The translations under genes and the position numbers were made by a program. The notes beneath the pieces are model-generated. The model was not told where the DNA came from, searched no databases, and was given only the letters and a program-made list of their open reading frames with translations. Positions 4,488 through 45,798 of a stretch of DNA of 60,607 nucleotides are shown one piece after another. Position 1 is the stretch's first letter. The number at the start of each line of letters is the position of its first letter. This DNA is from an uncultured Pelagibacteraceae bacterium (GTDB lineage Bacteria; Pseudomonadota; Alphaproteobacteria; Pelagibacterales; Pelagibacteraceae), in NCBI GenBank assembly GCA_902604005.1, contig CACKXH010000004.1, positions 1 through 60,607 on the forward strand, given 5' to 3'.

Positions 4488-6251
4488 ATGCCAAGCTATA
4501 CTGCACCAGTTGAAGATATGATGTTCCTCTTTGAGAAATTAAGAGATAATAAAAATTATAATGAATTAGAAAAATATAAAGAAGTTACCTCAGATTTGGT
4601 CAAAGATATTTTAGAAGAAGCTGCAAAAATTAACCAAAATTTAATATTACCACTTGCAAAAGTAGGTGATGAAAATCCTGCAGTATTAGAAAATGGAGTA
4701 GTTAGGACACCACCAGGATACAAAGAGGCATACAAAAAATATATTCAAGATGGGTGGACCTCTTTATCTTGTGATCCAAAATATGGAGGACAAGGTATGC
4801 CAAAAACAGTAAGCGCATTTTTTGATGAAATGTTATCTTCTGCAAGCTTATCCTTCAAACTGTATAGTGAGTTGAGCATAGGTGCATATAATTGCATTAA
4901 TCATCATGCATCAGATGAATTAAAAAATAAATATTTACCAAAAATTGTTGAAGGTAAATGGAGTGGAACTATGTGTTTAACAGAGCCTGTTTGTGGAACA
5001 GATTTGGGGCTTTTAAAAACCAAAGCTGAAAAACAAAATGATGGATCATATAAAATTAGTGGGCAAAAAATATTTATTACTTCAGGAGATCACGATTTAA
5101 CTGAGAATATAATTCATTTAGTAATTGCCAGAGAAACTGACTCACCAGCAGGCACTAAAGGTATAAGTTTATTTTTAGTTCCTAAATTTGTAGTTAATGA
5201 AGATGGAAGTATTGGTCCAAGAAATGGTATATCAACAGGATCTATTGAAAGTAAAATGGGCATAAAAGGTTCTGCGACATGTGTATTAAATTTTGATGAA
5301 GCTACCGGTTATATGATTGGTAAAAAAGATAAAGGTCTAAATGCAATGTTTACAATGATGAATCTTGAAAGAATAGTTGTTGGTATTCAAGGTTTAGGTG
5401 TTTCAGAAATTGCTTATCAAAACTCACTTGCTTATGCAAAAGAAAGAAAACAAGGTAAGACTAATAAAACTAAATCAACTAATGGTGCTGATTTTATAAT
5501 TGAACATGCAGATATAAGAAAATCATTATTAAACATGAAATCAATTATTGAGGGTGAGAGAGCTTTATGTTTTTGGTTATCACAACAAACTGAAGTTAGT
5601 TTAAATCATAAAGATGAAAAAGTACGTCAGATGGCATCTGATTTTGTTTCGTTGATGACACCAGTAGTAAAATCATTATTTACTGATTTAGGTATGGAAA
5701 TAACTAGTGATGCAATGCAAATTCATGGAGGTTATGGATATACAAAAGATCAAGGGATAGAACAGTTATATAGAGATAATAGAATAACACCAATATATGA
5801 AGGTACTAATTCAGTACAAGCTGCAGACTTAGTTTTTAGAAAATTATTTAATAAAAATGGAGATATAATCAATAAATACATAGATTTAATAAGAACCGAA
5901 ACTGATTTAGATAACGAAAAGATCAAGCCATTTACTAAGGAATTTACATATTACTTAAATATTTTAACTAAGTTTAGTGAATGGATTAATGAAAAAACCA
6001 AAACAGATAAAGACGATGTTAGCGCTGCTGCAAATGATTATTTAAAAACTCTTGGTTTTGTTTCAGTTGCTTATGCTTGGATAAAGGTCCTACATGTAAG
6101 TTTTAAAGATTATAATGAAAATAAAAACTTTTATGACGATAAAATCAATACTGCAAAATTTTATTTTGACAAAGTTTTACCTAGAGCCGAGCAACATTAC
6201 AAATCTGCTATTTCTGGAAGCTCAAATATAATGAGTTTTAAATTTGATTAA
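4488..6251 (+). CDS. dmdC: 3-(methylthio)propionyl-CoA dehydrogenase DmdC (acyl-CoA dehydrogenase)
   Basis: A 587-residue FAD acyl-CoA dehydrogenase. DmdC converts methylmercaptopropionyl-CoA to methylthioacryloyl-CoA in the DMSP demethylation pathway. The N-terminus MPSYTAPVEDMMFL, the roughly 590-residue length, the CLTEPVCGTDLG flavin segment (about 163-174) and IHGGYGY followed by YEGT (catalytic-base candidate Glu438) fit this long subfamily rather than the 380-residue ACADs. The assignment to DmdC rather than a general FadE comes mainly from its place beside dmdB and dmdA. It is followed by dmdB with essentially no gap. Confidence 0.87.
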   Translation: MPSYTAPVEDMMFLFEKLRDNKNYNELEKYKEVTSDLVKDILEEAAKINQNLILPLAKVGDENPAVLENGVVRTPPGYKEAYKKYIQDGWTSLSCDPKYGGQGMPKTVSAFFDEMLSSASLSFKLYSELSIGAYNCINHHASDELKNKYLPKIVEGKWSGTMCLTEPVCGTDLGLLKTKAEKQNDGSYKISGQKIFITSGDHDLTENIIHLVIARETDSPAGTKGISLFLVPKFVVNEDGSIGPRNGISTGSIESKMGIKGSATCVLNFDEATGYMIGKKDKGLNAMFTMMNLERIVVGIQGLGVSEIAYQNSLAYAKERKQGKTNKTKSTNGADFIIEHADIRKSLLNMKSIIEGERALCFWLSQQTEVSLNHKDEKVRQMASDFVSLMTPVVKSLFTDLGMEITSDAMQIHGGYGYTKDQGIEQLYRDNRITPIYEGTNSVQAADLVFRKLFNKNGDIINKYIDLIRTETDLDNEKIKPFTKEFTYYLNILTKFSEWINEKTKTDKDDVSAAANDYLKTLGFVSVAYAWIKVLHVSFKDYNENKNFYDDKINTAKFYFDKVLPRAEQHYKSAISGSSNIMSFKFD

Positions 6252-6255
6252 AACA

Positions 6256-7872
6256 ATGAGTCATTACGATACAAATTTAGATAAAAATGCTGCAAATTAT
6301 GTTCCATTAACACCTTTATCTTTTTTAGAAAGAGCAAAAGATGTTTATCCAAATTATGAGGCAATAGTATATGAAGATAGAAAATATACTTGGAGCGAAG
6401 TTTACAAAAGAGCCACCAAATTTGCTAGTGCATTAGAGAAAATTGGTATTCAAAAAGGAGATACTGTTTCTTTCTTGGCTTTTAATACTCCAGAAATTTT
6501 TGAAGCTCACTATTCAGTTCCGATGACAGGTGCTGTTTTAAATACAATTAATATTAGATTAGATGCAAATACAATTTCATACATCTTAAACCATAGTGAG
6601 GCAAAAGTACTGGTAGTTGATAGACAGCTTCATGTGGAAGTTAAAAAAGCTTTAAGTAAATTAGACAAAAAAATAATAATTATCGATATTCATGATAAAT
6701 TTACTGACCAATCAAAATTAGAAAAAATTGGTGATCTAGAATATGAAGATTTTCTTAATACAGGTGATGATAATTATATTTGGAAAATGCCTGAAGATGA
6801 GTGGCAGGCTATATCTTTAAGTTATACTTCAGGTACAACTGGAAATCCTAAAGGTGTTGTTTATCATCATAGAGGCTCTTATCTAATGTCTACTGGAAGT
6901 GCTGTTGCTTGGAATATGCCTAACAGATTAAATTTTTTAACTATTGTTCCAATGTTTCACTGTAATGGTTGGTGTTATCCCTGGACTGTTCCAATGTTGA
7001 ATGGAAGAACTATTTGTTTACGAAACATAGATGTAAAAAAGATTTTTGAATTAATAGATAAATATGATGTTACCCATTTTGGAGGAGCGCCGATTGTATT
7101 AAATATGATAACAGGTGCTCCTGAAAGTGATCGAAAAAAATTAAAAAATAAAGTTCATGTACTTACTGCAGGTGCTCCGCCTCCAAGTATAATTTTCAAA
7201 AAAATGAAAGAACTTGGTTTTGAGGTAATGCATGTTTATGGCTTAACGGAAACCTATGGTCATGTCACGCAATGTGCTTGGAATGAAGAATGGAACGAAT
7301 TTGACGAAGAAAAGAAAAATGAAATTAAAGCCAGACAAGGAGTTCGATATCCTAATCTTCAGGGAGCAGTAATTATGGATCCTGAAACTATGAAAGAAGT
7401 TCCAAAAGATGGAAAAACGATTGGCGAGATTATGCTTAAAGGAAATGTGGTCATGAAAGGTTATTTCAAAGATAAGGCTGCAACTGATAAGGCTATGGCT
7501 GGTGGATGGTTTCATTCTGGAGATTTAGCGGTAATGCATCCAGATGGATATGTAAAAATACAAGATAGATCAAAAGATATTATTATTTCTGGTGGAGAAA
7601 ATATCTCATCAATAGAAATAGAAAACACTTTAAGTAAACACCCTTCAGTATCAATTGCTGCTGTAGTAGCTAAACCTGATGAAAAATGGGGAGAAGTTCC
7701 CTGTGCATTTATTGAAATGGTTAAAGATAAACCTACTACAGAGAAAGAATTAATAAGTTTTTGTAAAGAAACTTTGGCAGGTTTTAAGGTTCCTAAACAA
7801 GTTGTTTTCTGTGAATTACCAAAAACTTCTACAGGTAAAATTCAAAAATTTGAGCTTAGAAAAAAATTTTAG
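6256..7872 (+). CDS. dmdB: 3-(methylthio)propionate-CoA ligase DmdB
   Basis: An AMP-forming acyl-CoA synthetase of 538 residues from the ATG at 6256. The frame is open from a TTG at 6244, but that would overlap dmdC. DmdB activates methylmercaptopropionate, the product of DmdA, to its CoA thioester with ATP. The adenylation signature YTSGTTGNPKG is at residues 190-200, the HVYGLTET motif follows, and the catalytic lysine is Lys528 in KTSTGK. Closely related medium-chain ligases cannot be excluded from sequence alone, but position between dmdC and dmdA supports the call. Confidence 0.87.
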   Translation: MSHYDTNLDKNAANYVPLTPLSFLERAKDVYPNYEAIVYEDRKYTWSEVYKRATKFASALEKIGIQKGDTVSFLAFNTPEIFEAHYSVPMTGAVLNTINIRLDANTISYILNHSEAKVLVVDRQLHVEVKKALSKLDKKIIIIDIHDKFTDQSKLEKIGDLEYEDFLNTGDDNYIWKMPEDEWQAISLSYTSGTTGNPKGVVYHHRGSYLMSTGSAVAWNMPNRLNFLTIVPMFHCNGWCYPWTVPMLNGRTICLRNIDVKKIFELIDKYDVTHFGGAPIVLNMITGAPESDRKKLKNKVHVLTAGAPPPSIIFKKMKELGFEVMHVYGLTETYGHVTQCAWNEEWNEFDEEKKNEIKARQGVRYPNLQGAVIMDPETMKEVPKDGKTIGEIMLKGNVVMKGYFKDKAATDKAMAGGWFHSGDLAVMHPDGYVKIQDRSKDIIISGGENISSIEIENTLSKHPSVSIAAVVAKPDEKWGEVPCAFIEMVKDKPTTEKELISFCKETLAGFKVPKQVVFCELPKTSTGKIQKFELRKKF

Positions 7873-7880
7873 GTAATTAA

Positions 7881-8657
7881 TTGAAAATAACTATACAAAA
7901 TAAAAGTGTTTATGCATCTGATGCCGGGCAAGGTATAAAAAATTCTAAAGATACAATAGTATTTTTGCATGGAAGTGGTTTATCACACATTGTTTGGTCC
8001 TTAACAGAACAATTTTTTTCAAATAAAAATTTTAATGTTTTGTCAATTGATTTACCTGGACATGGAAATTCCGAAGGACCTTGTTTAGATAGTATTGAAA
8101 AAATTGCAGAATGGTTAGAAAAAGTTTTTGAAGATTTAAAATTGAAGAATATAATTCTTGTGGGGCATTCACAAGGTTGTCTAGAAGCTCTGGAATATTC
8201 ATTTAAATATAAAGGTAGATTAAAAAAAATTATTTTTGTTGGAGGCTCCTATCGAATGCCAGTTAATAAAGATCTTATTGACTTAGCGTCAGATGGTGAC
8301 TCTGATGCTGTTAAGTTAATGATGAAATGGGGTTATGAAGGGTCAAAAAAATTTATTGGTGGAAATCCAGTAGAAAAAATTATTCAATCACCAAGAGATA
8401 TAAGTGAAATTTTAGCAGTTGATCTTATAGCATGCAATAATTATCAAAACGGTTCTGATGCTGCAAAAGCTATTAATTGCCCAGCTATGTTTATAATTGG
8501 AGAACTTGATAAGATGGCTAATTTAGAAAGTGGAAAAAAATTTGCAAATTTAGTCAAAAATTCAACTACTCATATAATTACTGGTTCAGGACATATGATT
8601 ATGATTGAAAAAGCTTTTGAAATGCGAGAAAAGATTTTGGAATTTTTAAATAAATGA
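7881..8657 (+). CDS. alpha/beta hydrolase embedded in the dmd cluster, substrate unknown
   Basis: A 258-residue alpha/beta-hydrolase fold protein. The nucleophile elbow GHSQG places Ser97, the acid is probably Asp210 in GELDKM, and the base is His238 in GSGHM; HGSG near residue 30 forms the oxyanion region. The start is TTG at 7881 with an AGG seven bases upstream. Its 3' end overlaps the dmdA start codon (ATGA), so it is translationally coupled to dmdA. Substrate cannot be read from sequence. A thioesterase or esterase acting on an intermediate of DMSP breakdown is an inference from position only. Confidence 0.85.
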
Positions 8658-9763
8658 AAAATTATTCAATAGCAAAATCTAGAAGATTAAGGAGCACACC
8701 CTATACTTCAAGAATAGAAAAACAAGGTGTAACAGCTTATACAGTTTATAATCATATGTTATTACCAGCAGCTTTTGGATCCATTGAAGATTCATATCAT
8801 CACCTAAAAAAAAATGTTCAGGTTTGGGATGTTGCTGCAGAAAGGCAAGTTGAAATTTCAGGAAAAGATTCAGCTAAACTAGTTCAATTAATGACTTGTA
8901 GAGATTTATCAAAATCTAAAATTGGTAGATGTTATTATTGTCCAATTATTGATGATAATGGAAATTTAATTAACGACCCAGTTATACTTAAATTAGCAGA
9001 TGATAAGTGGTGGATTTCCATTGCAGATTCTGATGTTATTTTTTTTGCAAAAGGACTCGCAGCAGGAAACAAATTTGACGTAAAAATTTCAGAACCAAAA
9101 GTAGATATCATAGCAATACAAGGCCCTAAATCTTTTGGCTTAATGGAAAAAGTTTTTGGCAAAGCAATTACAGAATTAAAGTTTTTTGGATTTGATTATT
9201 TTGATTACAAAGGTATTAGACATTTGATTGCTAGATCGGGCTGGTCAAAACAAGGTGGTTTTGAAATTTATGTTGAAAATACTGAATCAGGTCAAGATTT
9301 ATATGATTATCTTTTTAAAATAGGTAAGGAATTTAATGTAAAACCTGGCTGCCCAAATCTTATGGAACGAATTGAAAGTGGTCTGCTTTCCTACGGAAAT
9401 GATTTTGATAATGACGATAACCCTTTTGAATGTGGTTTTGAAAAATATGTAAATTTAGACACAGATATAGTTTTTTTGGGTAAAGAAAAATTAAGAAAAA
9501 TTAAATCTGAAGGAATCAAAAGAAAACTTATGGGAGTTCAAATTGAAACAAATGAAATTAATTTAACGGGTTCATTAAAAATTATGAATAATAAAGGCGA
9601 TATAATTGGAGATCTACGATCTGCATGCTATTCTCCTCATTTTAAAAAAGTTATTGGTATTGCAATGATAAATGAGCCTTTTTGCAAAGTATCAGAGACT
9701 GGCAAGCTCGAAATTCAAGGAAAAACTTTTACTCTTAAAGTTTGCGATTTACCTTTCATCTAG
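8654..9763 (+). CDS. dmdA: dimethylsulfoniopropionate demethylase DmdA
   Basis: A 369-residue GcvT-fold protein. DmdA transfers a methyl group from DMSP to tetrahydrofolate, giving methylmercaptopropionate and 5-methyl-THF. The sequence closely resembles the structurally characterised Pelagibacter ubique DmdA as I recall it: same length, the same first residues ([20 protein letters not shown]), the [19 protein letters not shown] segment, [10 protein letters not shown], and the ending VCDLPFI. This separates it from ordinary glycine-cleavage T proteins. The start codon overlaps the preceding hydrolase stop by 4 bases. Confidence 0.95.
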
Positions 9764-9778
9764 TATAAAACTTACATC

Positions 9779-10786
9779 ATGAATATTGCAATAGTTGGAG
9801 CAACAGGAAATGTTGGAAGAAAAACTTTAGAAGTTCTTGAAAAAAAAGAGCTATCTATTGATAATCTATATCTACTAGCTTCTTCAAAAAGTGCAGGCAA
9901 AAAAATTGGTTTTAAAGGCAAAGATTATGAAGTTTTTGATTTAGAAAGTTTTGATTTTGCTAAAGTAAAAATTGCTTTTTTTGCAGCAGGTGGAAAAATC
10001 TCAGAAAAATTTGCCGAAAAAGCAGCAAAGGATTGTCTAGTAATTGATAACTCAAGTTTTTATAGAATGGATCCAGATGTGCCTTTAATAGTTCCACAAG
10101 TTAACTCAAATCACTTAGTTAATATAAGAAAAAATATTATTGCCAATCCAAATTGTTCAACAGCACAATTAGTAATTGCCTTAAAACCTTTGCACGATTT
10201 ATTCATAATTAAAAGAATAGTTGTCTCTACATATCAATCAGTATCAGGTGGTGGCAAAGCACCTATGGATGAATTAATAGAACAAACTAAGTCAGTTCTG
10301 GATGGTAAAAAAGTAAAATCCAGAAATTTTACAAAACAAATAGCTTTTAATGCCATTCCTCATATTGATATATTTTCAAATGATGGTTACACAAAAGAAG
10401 AATTAAAAATGACCAATGAAACAAAAAAAATTTTAGATGATAAAATTGATTTAACAGCAACATGTGTAAGATTACCTATTTCTGTTTCACATGCAGAGTC
10501 AGTAAACCTACAATTTGAAAAACCTTTTTCTCTTGAAAAGGTAAGGGAAGCACTTAATAATTTTGAGAGTTGTAAAGTAATTGATGATAGAGTTGACGGT
10601 GGATACTCGACTCCATTAGAGGCAGAAGGTAAAGATGAAACATTTATATCGAGAATTCGAGAAGATAAAACAATTAAAAATGGATTAAATTTATGGATTG
10701 TTTCAGATAATCTACTGAGAGGTGCAGCTTTGAATGCAGTGGAAATAGCTGAGACATTAATTAAAAATAATTTTTATGGAAAATAA
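9779..10786 (+). CDS. asd: aspartate-semialdehyde dehydrogenase
   Basis: A 335-residue NADPH enzyme that reduces aspartyl phosphate to aspartate semialdehyde for lysine, threonine and methionine synthesis. The N-terminal GATGNVGRKTLEVL Rossmann loop, the catalytic cysteine in NPNCSTAQ (about residue 128), and the histidine in SHAESV are visible. It starts 15 bases after dmdA, and its last 11 bases overlap sdhC, so it may lead the sdh operon. Confidence 0.96.
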   Translation: MNIAIVGATGNVGRKTLEVLEKKELSIDNLYLLASSKSAGKKIGFKGKDYEVFDLESFDFAKVKIAFFAAGGKISEKFAEKAAKDCLVIDNSSFYRMDPDVPLIVPQVNSNHLVNIRKNIIANPNCSTAQLVIALKPLHDLFIIKRIVVSTYQSVSGGGKAPMDELIEQTKSVLDGKKVKSRNFTKQIAFNAIPHIDIFSNDGYTKEELKMTNETKKILDDKIDLTATCVRLPISVSHAESVNLQFEKPFSLEKVREALNNFESCKVIDDRVDGGYSTPLEAEGKDETFISRIREDKTIKNGLNLWIVSDNLLRGAALNAVEIAETLIKNNFYGK

Positions 10787-14809: not shown

Positions 14810-16303
14810 TTATGATAAAACTGGAATTGTGAATTCAGGACCAGCATTGTCTTCAACCCAGGTTACAGTTGCAGTTTTAAGTTTGGTATAAAATCTCACA
14901 CCTTCAGGGCCATGCATTGAGTGATCTCCAAATAAAGATCTCTTCCAACCACCAAAACTGTGATAGGCAACTGGCACAGGAATAGGTACATTTACTCCAA
15001 TCATTCCAATTTTAGCATTTTCAGTAAAATGTTTTGCAATGTTTCCACTTTTTGTAAAAACAGCAGCACCATTTCCAAGTTCATGATCATTTACCAAATT
15101 TAATGCTTCTTCATAAGTTTCAGTAGTTACCATACTTAGTACAGGTCCAAATATTTCTTCTTTATAGATTTTCATATCAGGCTTAACATCATCAAAAATT
15201 GTTGGCCCTACAAAATAACCTTTTTCGTATCCTTGTTTTTTAAAACCTCTTCCATCTGCTAACAATTTTGCACCTTCTTTTTCTCCAGTGTCTATATATC
15301 CTAAAACTTTTTCAAAGTGTGCTTTGTTATTTAATGGCCCGAAGTCACTCTTTTCATCTGTATAAGGACCTACATTTAATTTGGATGTCTCTTCTAAAAG
15401 TTTTGTTTTTATTTTTTCTTTAGTTTTTTTTCCTACACAAACAGCAACAGAAATTGCCATACATCTTTCACCTGCTGATCCGAAAGCAGATCCTATTATT
15501 GCATCTGTTGTCTTGTTAACATCAGCATCTGGCATTATTACCATGTGATTTTTGGCACCACCAAGTGCTTGAACTCTTTTATTGTTTTTGGTTCCAGTAT
15601 GATAAACGTACTCAGCAATAGGAGTTGAGCCAACAAAACTGATAGCTTGTACTGTTTTATTTTCTAACAATGTATCTACAGCTTCTTTGTCACCATTAAC
15701 TACATTTAAAACACCAGCAGGTAATCCAGCCTCTATTGCCAATTCTGCTAATCTCATTGGACAGCTTGGATCTTTTTCTGATGGTTTTAAAACAAATGTA
15801 TTTCCACAAGCTATTGAAACAGGATACATCCACATTGGTACCATTGCAGGAAAATTAAATGGTGTAATACCAGCACAAACTCCAAGAGGTTGTCTTAGAG
15901 TATGAGAGTCAACATTTGTTCCGACACTTGATGAATGGTCTCCTTTTAAAGAGTCTGTAATTCCAGTTGCATATTCAACGACTTCAATACCCCTTTGTAT
16001 TGAACCTTTTGCATCAGGAATAGTTTTTCCATGTTGTTCTGAAACCATCACGGCTAGTTCTTCCATATTTTTTATAAGTAAATCTTTATACTTTGATAAA
16101 ATCCTAGCTCTATTTATAGGGGTGGTTTTTGACCATTTTAAAAATGCCTTAGCAGAACTTTCAATTGCCATTTCTACAGTTGCTTTACTTGCTAATTCAA
16201 CTTCAGCTATTTGTTCTCCAATAGCAGGATTAAATATTGGACCTTTTCGTGATTTTTTATCACTGTAAATTTTTCCATCAATAAAATGGTTTACTATTTT
16301 CAT
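14810..16303 (-). CDS. mmsA: CoA-acylating methylmalonate-semialdehyde dehydrogenase family (MmsA/IolA/DddC-like)
   Basis: A 497-residue aldehyde dehydrogenase. The catalytic cysteine is Cys281 in GSAGERCMA, a signature of CoA-dependent methylmalonate or malonate semialdehyde dehydrogenases. PFNFPAMVPMWMYP and the C-terminal PVPVAYHSFGGWKRSLFGD also match this subfamily. Substrates in the family are methylmalonate semialdehyde (valine, thymine) and malonate semialdehyde (beta-alanine, 3-hydroxypropionate, DMSP-derived C3). Which applies here cannot be read directly. It heads an operon with the IclR regulator. Confidence 0.92.
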   Translation of the reverse strand: MKIVNHFIDGKIYSDKKSRKGPIFNPAIGEQIAEVELASKATVEMAIESSAKAFLKWSKTTPINRARILSKYKDLLIKNMEELAVMVSEQHGKTIPDAKGSIQRGIEVVEYATGITDSLKGDHSSSVGTNVDSHTLRQPLGVCAGITPFNFPAMVPMWMYPVSIACGNTFVLKPSEKDPSCPMRLAELAIEAGLPAGVLNVVNGDKEAVDTLLENKTVQAISFVGSTPIAEYVYHTGTKNNKRVQALGGAKNHMVIMPDADVNKTTDAIIGSAFGSAGERCMAISVAVCVGKKTKEKIKTKLLEETSKLNVGPYTDEKSDFGPLNNKAHFEKVLGYIDTGEKEGAKLLADGRGFKKQGYEKGYFVGPTIFDDVKPDMKIYKEEIFGPVLSMVTTETYEEALNLVNDHELGNGAAVFTKSGNIAKHFTENAKIGMIGVNVPIPVPVAYHSFGGWKRSLFGDHSMHGPEGVRFYTKLKTATVTWVEDNAGPEFTIPVLS

Positions 16304-43359: not shown

Positions 43360-44079
43360 TTAAAAATTATCCTTTAAATCTCTTAATTTTGAAAAGCTTT
43401 TTATATTTTTAGCCTTAAGAAATATATTACATTCTATTTCTTCATTTAAAATAGTCGGTACAGTTGGTATTCCTTTTTCTAGTTTCTTTTTAATATTTAA
43501 TATTTTATTTTTAAGCTTCGCATTTTTAGAGTCTTGTGTAATACAAAAATATGAGTTTTGAAGCGTATATTCATGTCCACAATAGATTTTTGTTTCTTTA
43601 GGTAAATTTTTAATTTTATTCAAAGAGTTAAACATTTGCTCATAACTTCCTTCAAAAATTCTACCACAACCAAGAGAAAAAAGAGTATCGCCTGTAAAAA
43701 TTATTTTTTCTTTAAAAAAGTGGAAAGCAATATGTCCACTTGTATGACCAGGGATATGATAAATTTTTGCTTCAAAATTATCTTCTTTCCATATTTGGTT
43801 ATCTTCGAGAAAAATATCTATTCCTGGAATACGTTCTCTATCCTTTCTAAATCCAACTACTTTAGAGTCATATTTTCTTTTTAATTCCAGATTACCACCT
43901 ACGTGATCATAATGATGATGAGTATTAAGAATATATTTTAATTTTACATTATTATCTTTAATAAAATTAATTACAGGCAAAGATTCACTTGGATCAATAA
44001 CACAAGCATTTTTATTTGTTTCATCAATTATCAAATAACTATAATTATCTTTAAGGCATTTAATAATTTCAATTTTCAT
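43360..44079 (-). CDS. gloB: hydroxyacylglutathione hydrolase (glyoxalase II)
   Basis: A 239-residue metallo-beta-lactamase-fold protein. THHHYDHVGG is the binuclear metal motif (near residue 52), HIPGHTSGHIAFHF and TGDTLFSLGCGR are the other ligand regions, and CGHEYT near residue 160 is typical of glyoxalase II. It hydrolyses lactoylglutathione in methylglyoxal detoxification. It is one base downstream of metW, and so probably part of the metX-metW operon. Confidence 0.92.
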   Translation of the reverse strand: MKIEIIKCLKDNYSYLIIDETNKNACVIDPSESLPVINFIKDNNVKLKYILNTHHHYDHVGGNLELKRKYDSKVVGFRKDRERIPGIDIFLEDNQIWKEDNFEAKIYHIPGHTSGHIAFHFFKEKIIFTGDTLFSLGCGRIFEGSYEQMFNSLNKIKNLPKETKIYCGHEYTLQNSYFCITQDSKNAKLKNKILNIKKKLEKGIPTVPTILNEEIECNIFLKAKNIKSFSKLRDLKDNF

Positions 44080-44080
44080 T

Positions 44081-44677
44081 TTATTTTTCGATTAAAAATA
44101 TTCCAAGTTCAGAATATAGATTTTTGATAAATAAATTAGAATTGTTAATATTTGATACACTATTATTCACAAGAGCTAAAGATTTAAAAATCTTGAAATT
44201 TATAGTTTCAGAAAACTTAAAAAAATCTTTAATAGTACACATATGAATATTAGGTGTATTGTACCATTCATTAGGTAATGTTTTGGTCACTGGCATTGTA
44301 CCTTTTGTTAATAAATTTAACCTTACTTTCCAATGACCAAAATTTGGAATAGTAACGATAGCTTTTTTCCCTACTCTTAAGAGTTCTTTAATGACTATTT
44401 CTGGATTTATAAAAGCTTGCAAAGTTTGACCTAAAACAACATAATCAAAAGAATCATTTGGAAACTGTTTCAAGTCAAATTCTGCATTTCCCTCAATTAC
44501 TGTTAATCCTTTAGATATACATACTTGAACTTTTTCTTTTGAAATTTCTATACCTCTTATATCAACATTTTTATTCTTTTTAAGAAATTCCATTAAAGTT
44601 CCGTCATTACAACCAACATCTAAAACTCTGGACTTTTCATTTATCATATTAGTAATTATTTTATATTCTGGCTTCAT
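44081..44677 (-). CDS. metW: methionine biosynthesis protein MetW
   Basis: A 198-residue class I SAM-dependent methyltransferase-like protein. VLDVGCNDGTLMEFL is the SAM-binding loop, and PNFGHWKVRLNLLTKGTMPVT (in part) is the MetW signature. MetW is generally encoded with MetX and is needed for MetX function in several proteobacteria. It lies 5 bases after metX. Confidence 0.94.
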   Translation of the reverse strand: MKPEYKIITNMINEKSRVLDVGCNDGTLMEFLKKNKNVDIRGIEISKEKVQVCISKGLTVIEGNAEFDLKQFPNDSFDYVVLGQTLQAFINPEIVIKELLRVGKKAIVTIPNFGHWKVRLNLLTKGTMPVTKTLPNEWYNTPNIHMCTIKDFFKFSETINFKIFKSLALVNNSVSNINNSNLFIKNLYSELGIFLIEK

Positions 44678-44682
44678 AAGAT

Positions 44683-45798
44683 TTATTCTATGTATGATTT
44701 ATCTAAAAAATTTTTAAGAGCTTTTAAAAAATCTGGAACATCTAATAAAAAAGAATCATGACCTTTATCAGACTCTATTTCTACAAAACCAACATCAGCA
44801 CCAATGGCATTTAATGCAATAACTATCTCCTTATTTTCTTGAGTAGGATAAAGCCAATCTGATGTGAATGATATTACAAAAAATTTAGCCTTTGTATCTT
44901 TGAAAGCATTAGACAAATTTCCATTAAACTGTTTAATTAAATCGAAGTAATCCATTGCCCTGGTTATATAAAGATAGCTGTTGGCATCAAATCTATCTAC
45001 AAAAACAGAACCTTGATATCTCAAATAGCTTTCTATTTGAAAGTCAGCATCAAAACCAAATTTGAGATCATCTCTTTCTTGTAAGTTTCTTCCAAATTTT
45101 TCTTGAAGACCTTTTTTTGAAAGATAAGTTATATGTGCAGCCATTCTGGCAACTGCTAATCCTTTATCTGGAACATTATTGTTAGATAAATATTTTCCAT
45201 CTAACCAATTGTGGTCAGCTGTAATAGCTTGTCTGCCAAGTTCATTAAATGCAATATTTTGTGCAGAATGACTAGAGGTGCAAGCTATAGGTATTGCTGT
45301 TTTAGTTTTTTCAGGAAAATTACTCACAAATTGTAAAACTTGCATTCCTCCCATTGACCCACCAACAACAGAAAAAAGTTTTGTAATTCCAAAATGATCT
45401 AATAAATTTACTTGTGCGTTAACAATATCGTTTATTGTAATTACTGGAAAATCTGTTCCATATATTTTTTTTGTTTCTTGATTGATATGACTAGGACCAA
45501 AAGACCCCATGCATCCACCAATAACATTTGCACAAATAACAAAATATTTATTTGTATCAATTGATTTATTTGGACCAACAGCATAAGACCACCAACCATC
45601 TTTTTTAGTTATTGGATTTATACCTGTAACAAATTGATCTCCAGTTAATGCATGGCACACTAAAATTGCGTTATCTTTTTTTTCATTTAGGTAACCATAA
45701 GTTTCATAAGCTAAAGGGAAATTATTAATAATTTGACCACAATCTAACTTTAATGGTTTTTTTATAACAATTGTTTTTATATTCTCTTTAATATTCAT
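44683..45798 (-). CDS. metX: homoserine O-acetyltransferase MetX
   Basis: A 371-residue alpha/beta-hydrolase-fold acyltransferase. The nucleophile is Ser148 in GGSMGGMQ, the acid is in FTSDWLYP (Asp), and the base is in GHDSFLLD (His). [13 protein letters not shown] is typical. It makes O-acetylhomoserine (possibly succinyl in some family members), which accepts sulfide or methanethiol downstream. A SAM-II riboswitch and promoter precede it, so expression should fall when S-adenosylmethionine is high. Confidence 0.95.

Follow-up and report, generated by a model that had tools for sequence, protein, structure and literature searches.

What does an alpha/beta hydrolase do inside an operon for the breakdown of dimethylsulfoniopropionate (DMSP), and could it stand in for the DmdD enzyme that is missing there? 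SAR11 cells are major DMSP consumers in the ocean. The question is raised by contig CACKXH010000004.1 of an uncultured Pelagibacteraceae bacterium (assembly GCA_902604005.1; positions 1 to 60,607, hereafter the window), in which a hydrolase gene, here called abh, lies between dmdB and dmdA. The lack of dmdD in SAR11 is not new: passages in print already describe it (PMC5069961, PMC8547437), report that DmdD orthologues are absent from strain HTCC1062 with alternate enzymes hypothesised, and leave the methanethiol-releasing enzyme of SAR11 as an open question (PMC5069961); elsewhere, DmdD or AcuH is given for the step (PMC5395565). A first-pass annotation of the window had noted abh where a DmdD is lacking and suggested that it might act on a CoA thioester or another intermediate, or on a DMSP ester. 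Our analysis makes a reading as DmdD stand-in weak and a partnership with metY the better lead: abh appears to be a relative of a proteobacterial serine-hydrolase family that usually lies directly behind one type of metY, and we give the resulting explanation, in which abh works where methanethiol is released or captured, a probability of about 0.5.

Conservation of abh at the dmd locus in part of the genus

The window genes run in one direction in the order leuC-leuD-leuB-dmdC-dmdB-abh-dmdA-asd-sdh (leu, asd and sdh were named by eye), and the frames of dmdC, dmdB, abh and dmdA are open, as had been described for this run of genes. DmdA is firmly identified, with 574.1 bits against the curated DMSP demethylase model NF009133 (cut-off 410). 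For DmdB and DmdC, the naming follows gene position and the SAR11 literature, because the specific curated models were not reached: DmdB passed the broader acyl-CoA synthetase model NF006020 (862.6 versus a cut-off of 677) and stayed below the 3-(methylthio)propionyl-CoA ligase model NF005426 (347.5 versus a curated cut-off of 822), and DmdC passed no curated NCBIfam model. By eye, an ATG at 6256 is the likelier start of dmdB. The abh start codon lies 8 bases past the dmdB stop codon, and the abh stop codon overlaps the dmdA start as ATGA.

We compared 61 genomes: the window's own (67% complete), 36 others of its genus and 24 of its order. Close copies of abh (at least 53% identity) were present in 20 of the 37 genus genomes, including the window's, and all 20 had dmdB upstream and dmdA downstream. 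The translational coupling of abh to dmdA noticed in the first pass proved to be real, the 4-base overlap being present in 14 of the 20 loci; the junction was a 1-base overlap in three and a gap of 2–5 bases in the other three. At the place of the window's abh start, five genus loci (L016–L020) have CTG, and a TTG codon is aligned in the other 15. DmdA was found at no less than 67% identity in 30 of the 37 genomes, with one copy partial. Because 20 of these 30 carry abh at dmd, the gene is conserved beside dmdA across relatives rather than rarely found there. In the other ten, abh is missing between dmdB and dmdA, whose alignments lie 20–110 bases apart, and the order leuD-leuB-dmdC-dmdB-dmdA-asd-sdh is intact. 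Two single-contig genus genomes from a separate draw of the class (L284 and L285) also carry abh at dmd. In a named genome collection, where the window's nearest matches are single cells of Pelagibacteraceae and strains named Ca. Pelagibacter ubique, abh preceded dmdA in 80 of 80 and dmdB preceded abh in 79 of 80 of the best 80 of 436 relatives, which were chosen by similarity and are not a fair sample. In part of the genus, then, abh is a genuine dmd operon gene that is conserved and, at most loci, translationally coupled.

Two loci departed from this pattern in other ways. In L099 (SAG-MED01), abh-dmdA-asd is in place and dmdB, dmdC and leuB were not found within 6 kb upstream of position 6001, a rearrangement or an assembly effect. 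In the single-cell genome locus L094:6768-7875, the dmdA match is split into two pieces in different frames, likely by a frameshift or sequencing error.

Table 1. Genes of the window discussed in the text, with positions counted from its first base.
Gene	Position	Strand	Remarks
dmdC	4488..6251	+	Open reading frame; acyl-CoA dehydrogenase with C-terminal domain PF12806; 3-methylmercaptopropionyl-CoA dehydrogenase by position; syntenic in the genus
dmdB	6244..7872	+	Open reading frame; acyl-CoA synthetase
abh	7881..8657	+	Alpha/beta hydrolase, 258 aa; TTG start; Ser97-Asp210-His238
dmdA	8654..9763	+	DMSP demethylase; ATGA overlap with abh
asd-like gene	9779..10786	+	Named by eye; syntenic downstream neighbour with or without abh
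CoA-acylating (methyl)malonate-semialdehyde dehydrogenase gene	14810..16303	-	TIGR01722, 659.5 bits versus 448.5
metX (homoserine O-acyltransferase)	44683..45798	-	NF001209, 514.2 bits versus 331, on bases 44704-45762

Pairing of the hydrolase family with metY

Eight of the ten dmdA-bearing genus genomes without abh at dmd encode a 38–41% identical abh elsewhere, coupled to metY, the gene for O-acetylhomoserine sulfhydrylase. One genus genome without detected dmdA has the same arrangement, which brings the metY-linked form to 9 of 37. By match positions, metY ends where abh begins in all nine (gene tables were read for four). MetY of the type described by the model PRK08134 was present in exactly these nine genomes; the remaining genus genomes had a more distant MetY, 42–45% identical to that type, or none at E 1e-60 (8 drafts). 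The dmd-linked and metY-linked forms never occurred together (20 + 9 of 37 genomes, overlap 0), which has a chance of 2e-4 if the genomes are treated as independent. Either form was found in 28 of the 30 dmdA-bearing genus genomes versus 1 of the 7 without detected dmdA; when the 20 physically linked genomes were excluded, the counts were 8 of 10 versus 1 of 7 (Fisher 0.015). A quick tree gathered the dmd-linked copies in one clade (28 rows, support 92).

Around the metY-linked form, two further features recurred. The more distant MetY lies directly behind the pair in three genus genomes, giving a tandem metY-abh-metY (L173:6446-9982, L178:7176-10676 and genome G005). An IMES-2 RNA motif lies about 7 kb from the pair in all three such SAR11 loci searched (L171:16142-16281, L173:87-227 and L179:991-1131). 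An Rfam search at gathering thresholds, covering the window and five loci, returned only tRNAs and this motif, with no S-adenosylmethionine riboswitch upstream of either dmd or metY-abh.

The pairing extends well beyond the genus. We searched 385 alphaproteobacterial genomes with a metY-linked abh as the query (E 1e-30 or better), searched the same 385 with its MetY, and paired the matches. The family had 109 members in 108 genomes, and 103 of the 109 immediately followed metY, on the same strand and at a distance of -4 to 222 nt. The other six were one member with metY 427 nt away, two cut by contig ends and three SAR11 copies in a dmd operon. Conversely, among 106 MetY matches of at least 540 bits, 103 had abh adjacent, one had it at 427 nt and two were cut by contig ends; abh was beside none of the next 8 MetY matches, and the pairing covered matches down to these only. 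A draw of 398 proteobacterial genomes provided 14 matches in other classes at E 1e-40 or better, of which 13 loci were read. In all 13, metY precedes abh on the same strand; it lies within 120 nt in 12 and, measured between alignments, at 497 nt in L432. Long open frames had suggested a MetY-abh gene fusion, an idea we dropped when two hand-checked metY-abh gaps (L274 and L275) turned out not to be in frame.

The MetY of the pair passes the curated PRK08134 model for O-acetylhomoserine aminocarboxypropyltransferase (663.1 versus 636). Enzymes of this type make methionine from methanethiol, or homocysteine from sulfide. The window abh matched the metY-linked protein P0002 at E 1.6e-57 with 39% identity, and at the thresholds used the dmd-linked and metY-linked groups shared 27 positions that are conserved and identical in both, with 3 conserved but different.

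These patterns bear directly on two other accounts of abh. If it were a hitch-hiker with no role in either pathway, its place in a leu-dmd-asd-sdh neighbourhood that mixes functions would fit, but a pairing with a single metY type that is almost one-to-one across classes, together with the mutual exclusion of the two forms in the genus, makes this very unlikely. A near-exact partner of MetY might instead be an acyltransferase that makes O-acetylhomoserine for it, and MetX does share the alpha/beta hydrolase fold. However, abh is not needed as a MetX, because the window holds a proper metX (Table 1), whose product supplies the acyl-homoserine used by MetY, and a match to the MetX model occurs in 55 of the 61 genomes (none over that model's own cut-off). 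Similarity between abh and the window's own MetX was not beyond chance (14.6 bits, E 2.8), and no MetX model was among the 25 of 27 NCBIfam matches listed. We therefore rejected a MetX-like acyltransferase, the least credible of the accounts considered, on the strength of the window's MetX and the missing similarity to it.

On the strand of metX, the stretch 43360-45798 also holds, after metX, a metW-like methyltransferase gene and a gene for a glyoxalase-II-like metallo-hydrolase (both named by eye).

We also surveyed the genes within 6 kb of metY-abh in 70 fetched loci out of the 106 non-SAR11 class matches, clustering them and counting without a control set. In all 70, metY was the next query match upstream of abh. 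A hot-dog thioesterase-like gene was present in 24 of the 70 loci, with its centre within 900 bp of abh in 21; the one example tested passed Pfam 4HBT_2 and not the curated YbgC/FadM model. A fusion of 3-hydroxyacyl-CoA dehydrogenase and crotonase domains occurred in 12 of the 70, seven of them clearly FadN-type, and 10 loci had a DmdB-like acyl-CoA synthetase. L280 has the order fadN-like fusion-dmdB-metY-abh, and the two genomes of family f118 each have a true DmdA (480–481 bits versus 410) divergent from metY-abh, with a fusion gene behind it. DmdA exceeded the cut-off in 33 of the 385 class genomes, and abh was present in 25 of these 33 versus 83 of the 352 others, an odds ratio of 10 (9 without SAR11) that is not corrected for kinship.

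In family f32, a small protein of 113–114 residues that weakly resembles formaldehyde-activating (GFA) enzymes is encoded directly after abh (L281:7977-8321 on the minus strand, and also L282 and L283). Its gene overlaps abh in L281 and L283; the curated GFA model, compared with L281 only, was far from reached.

Likely chemistry of abh and the missing DmdD step

The protein itself is a complete alpha/beta hydrolase, as the first pass had read it. It exceeds the Pfam gathering scores of Abhydrolase_1 (PF00561, 81.1 bits versus 25.8) and Abhydrolase_6 (PF12697, 68.7 versus 26.3), and Ser97, Asp210 and His238 are invariant in 104 of 104 aligned family rows. Pfam detected no crotonase domain in it, so the crotonase fold of DmdD was not encountered. 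The AlphaFold2 model (mean pLDDT, the per-residue model confidence, 87.6) has esterases and lactonases as structural neighbours at Z scores of about 30, among them the enol-lactonase 2xua (Z 30.8) and the N-acyl homoserine lactone degrading esterase 5egn (Z 27.7). By profile, the nearest solved sequence is AF-Est2 of Archaeoglobus fulgidus (5frd; E 2.9e-30), an esterase that resembles abh in fold and size (Z 29.1, root-mean-square deviation 2.1, 239 residues aligned) and in its short cap. Passages of the AF-Est2 paper describe a small esterase with coenzyme A (CoA) lying tightly bound in the active-site groove (PMC4861933). Of the CoA-site residues named there, a Tyr-x-Asn-Gly stretch is, by eye, common to both proteins; Arg117 is aligned with Arg or Lys in many dmd-linked copies, and Lys206 and Tyr207 are absent from the window copy. 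Taken together, triad, fold and sequence similarity to AF-Est2 make hydrolysis of an ester or thioester through an acyl-enzyme the likely chemistry, and we are confident that abh uses its triad to hydrolyse one or the other.

The lactonases among these neighbours invite a further account, in which abh is a repair enzyme for ring products arising around MetY, either homocysteine thiolactone or homoserine lactone, which it would open. Such a role would fit the metY linkage everywhere; it gives no reason for a place in the dmd operon, and fold neighbours do not show function, so we regard it as improbable.

The explanation that we favour places abh at the release or capture of methanethiol, as its linkage to MetY, DmdA and CoA-thioester enzymes suggests. 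In part of the genus, the PRK08134-type MetY was not found and abh lies between dmdB and dmdA instead of behind metY, translated with the methanethiol-producing DMSP operon. Ser97 would attack a carbonyl to form an acyl-enzyme, which water activated by His238 and Asp210 would resolve. The likeliest bond would be a small thioester: either malonyl-semialdehyde-CoA, left after methanethiol leaves the last intermediate (the second half of the DmdD reaction), or an S-methyl thioester in which methanethiol would stay trapped without it. That the substrate is one of these two is a tentative proposal, to which we give appreciably less than even odds. We are fairly sure, on the other hand, that abh is tied to methanethiol or methionine chemistry. 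This tie is to such chemistry in general and not to the DmdD step alone, because the family pairs with metY in 103 of 109 cases and 83 of the 108 family-bearing genomes lack a DmdA over the cut-off.

How, then, might the DmdD step be carried out in this genus? The first pass had found no crotonase-type DmdD, and this held for the window and its genome, where a crotonase family search (no search with a DmdD sequence was made) gave no match. At least one crotonase match occurred, however, in all 36 other genus genomes, and in 60 of 60 others of the 61. The absence from the window's genome therefore means little and probably reflects its incompleteness, and we rejected a crotonase-free genome as an explanation. 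Strong crotonases (1e-50 or better) were present in 26 of the 37 genus genomes; the five that were read all had the same changed stretches (by eye), and six genomes (G010, G011, G014, G018, G027 and G030) had a further strong crotonase outside those read.

In the aligned genus crotonase of L035 (1501-2247, minus strand), Gly and Lys occupy the places of what we take to be the two catalytic glutamates of the human mitochondrial enoyl-CoA hydratase ECHS1. Its closest structures were 3myb and the ECHDC3 structure 2vx2, with 5xzd, presumably AcuH, in 13th place. Because both glutamates are missing, a generic crotonase as the fallback for DmdD in the genus looks weak, although the curated model NF006008 still names the protein an enoyl-CoA hydratase (347.5 versus 313) and with this match a crotonase for the step may yet apply. 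A FadN-like fusion with 60–64% identity was present in 31 of the 37 genus genomes, with and without dmdA, and keeps one of the two glutamates (by eye); in G012, a complete genome, the second crotonase match is probably this fusion, to judge by its weak crotonase score. MaoC-type hydratases were found in 0 of the 37 genus genomes versus 24 of 24 of the sister family.

Replacement of DmdD by abh as a whole, releasing methanethiol and malonate semialdehyde or acetaldehyde from methylthioacryloyl-CoA single-handedly, would suit the absence of dmdD beside dmdA, the position of abh inside the operon, the missing MaoC-type hydratases and the altered crotonase and fusion glutamates. We nevertheless consider it highly doubtful. 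The operon is without abh in ten of the 30 genus genomes that carry dmdA, the family keeps its tie to metY where DmdA is absent, and the L035 crotonase exceeds the cut-off of its model; hydration of an enoyl-CoA is, moreover, not known to us from any serine hydrolase with this fold. The ten abh-less operons and the metY linkage in DmdA-less genomes ruled it out as our principal explanation, and a role as DmdD stand-in, to which the first-pass reading leads, is not supported on the same counts. abh is not an obvious answer to which enzyme hydrates methylthioacryloyl-CoA in SAR11; it may still hydrolyse a pathway thioester.

One such division of labour can be envisaged. A crotonase domain, for example that of the FadN-like fusion, would hydrate methylthioacryloyl-CoA and release methanethiol, abh would cleave the remaining CoA thioester, and a semialdehyde dehydrogenase would lead to acetyl-CoA. 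The fusion is widespread in the genus and stands upstream of dmdB-metY-abh in L280, thioesterase-like genes adjoin metY-abh, and the window encodes a (methyl)malonate-semialdehyde dehydrogenase that could convert malonate semialdehyde at the end of the pathway to acetyl-CoA. However, the fusion is no marker of the pathway, because 6 of the 7 genus genomes in which no dmdA was detected carry it too, and the division would leave metY-abh in genomes without DmdA unexplained. We judge it unlikely, though less so than the repair enzyme.

Several observations weigh against the methanethiol-linked explanation that we prefer. Since 83 of the 108 family-bearing class genomes have no DmdA over the cut-off, the substrate need not derive from DMSP. 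The need for abh is also not universal, because 8 of the 33 DmdA genomes are without the family. Within the genus, neither form was found in the dmdA-bearing genomes G027 (83% complete) and G031 (76% complete), and a search for MetY at E 1e-60, whatever the type, came up empty in 6 of the 20 dmd-linked genomes, all of them drafts and including the window's own. The quick tree leaves the dmd-linked clade unplaced relative to the SAR11 metY-linked clade, so that the apparent relocation could be a separate arrival. Genes without evident relation recur near metY-abh as often as those named above (an oxidoreductase-like gene in 29 loci, another conserved gene in 26); because of this, and because the counts have no control, neighbour recurrence alone is no proof of function. 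AF-Est2 is only 24–25% identical to abh, its CoA contacts are only partly kept (by eye, from the alignment), and other esterases and lactonases outrank it by structure. In passages of its description, AF-Est2 is inactive on acetyl-CoA and succinyl-CoA despite binding CoA (PMC4861933).

Relation to known systems

Now that its relatives are seen to pair with one type of metY across Proteobacteria, what was a vaguely described hydrolase of the operon gives rise to a testable statement on sulfur hand-over, which can be examined in other organisms that are open to cultivation. At its boldest, this statement would make the family a proteobacterial hand-over enzyme: it would cleave a thioester at the very point of capture by MetY, releasing methanethiol or a different small thiol, and some SAR11 would have shifted it from the capturing end (metY) to the producing end (dmdCBA), closing the dmdD gap. 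We offer this as a speculation that is probably wrong in its full form; if true, it would fill a gap of long standing in a DMSP degrader that ranks among the most abundant in the ocean. The L035 crotonase without catalytic glutamates, for its part, questions the usual DmdD fallback in the genus. A literature search of open-licence papers found neither the pairing of metY with a hydrolase nor a SAR11 substitute for DmdD.

That the hydrolase accompanies DMSP genes has been reported before. A 2011 figure legend lists dmdA, mhpC (an alpha/beta hydrolase), fadD and mmgC together (PMC3160333), and the passages of that paper on the dmd cluster of Ca. P. ubique HTCC1062 list the hydrolase with the DMSP genes and give no role, metY link or two exclusive forms. 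DmdD and AcuH, the crotonase hydratases of methylthioacryloyl-CoA, catalyse the step for which no gene lies beside dmdA, and differ from abh in fold. A further comparison is with the alphaproteobacterial hydrolases of the metY-abh pairs, which we call MetY-partner hydrolases: identity to the SAR11 metY-linked copies is about 40% over the whole length, and conserved residues are shared. Unlike them, the window abh is linked to dmdA, lying after dmdB and before dmdA, and its 67% complete draft yielded no MetY. Because a PRK08134-type metY is not directly upstream, we call it a relocated relative of the MetY-partner hydrolases rather than a typical member of the family.

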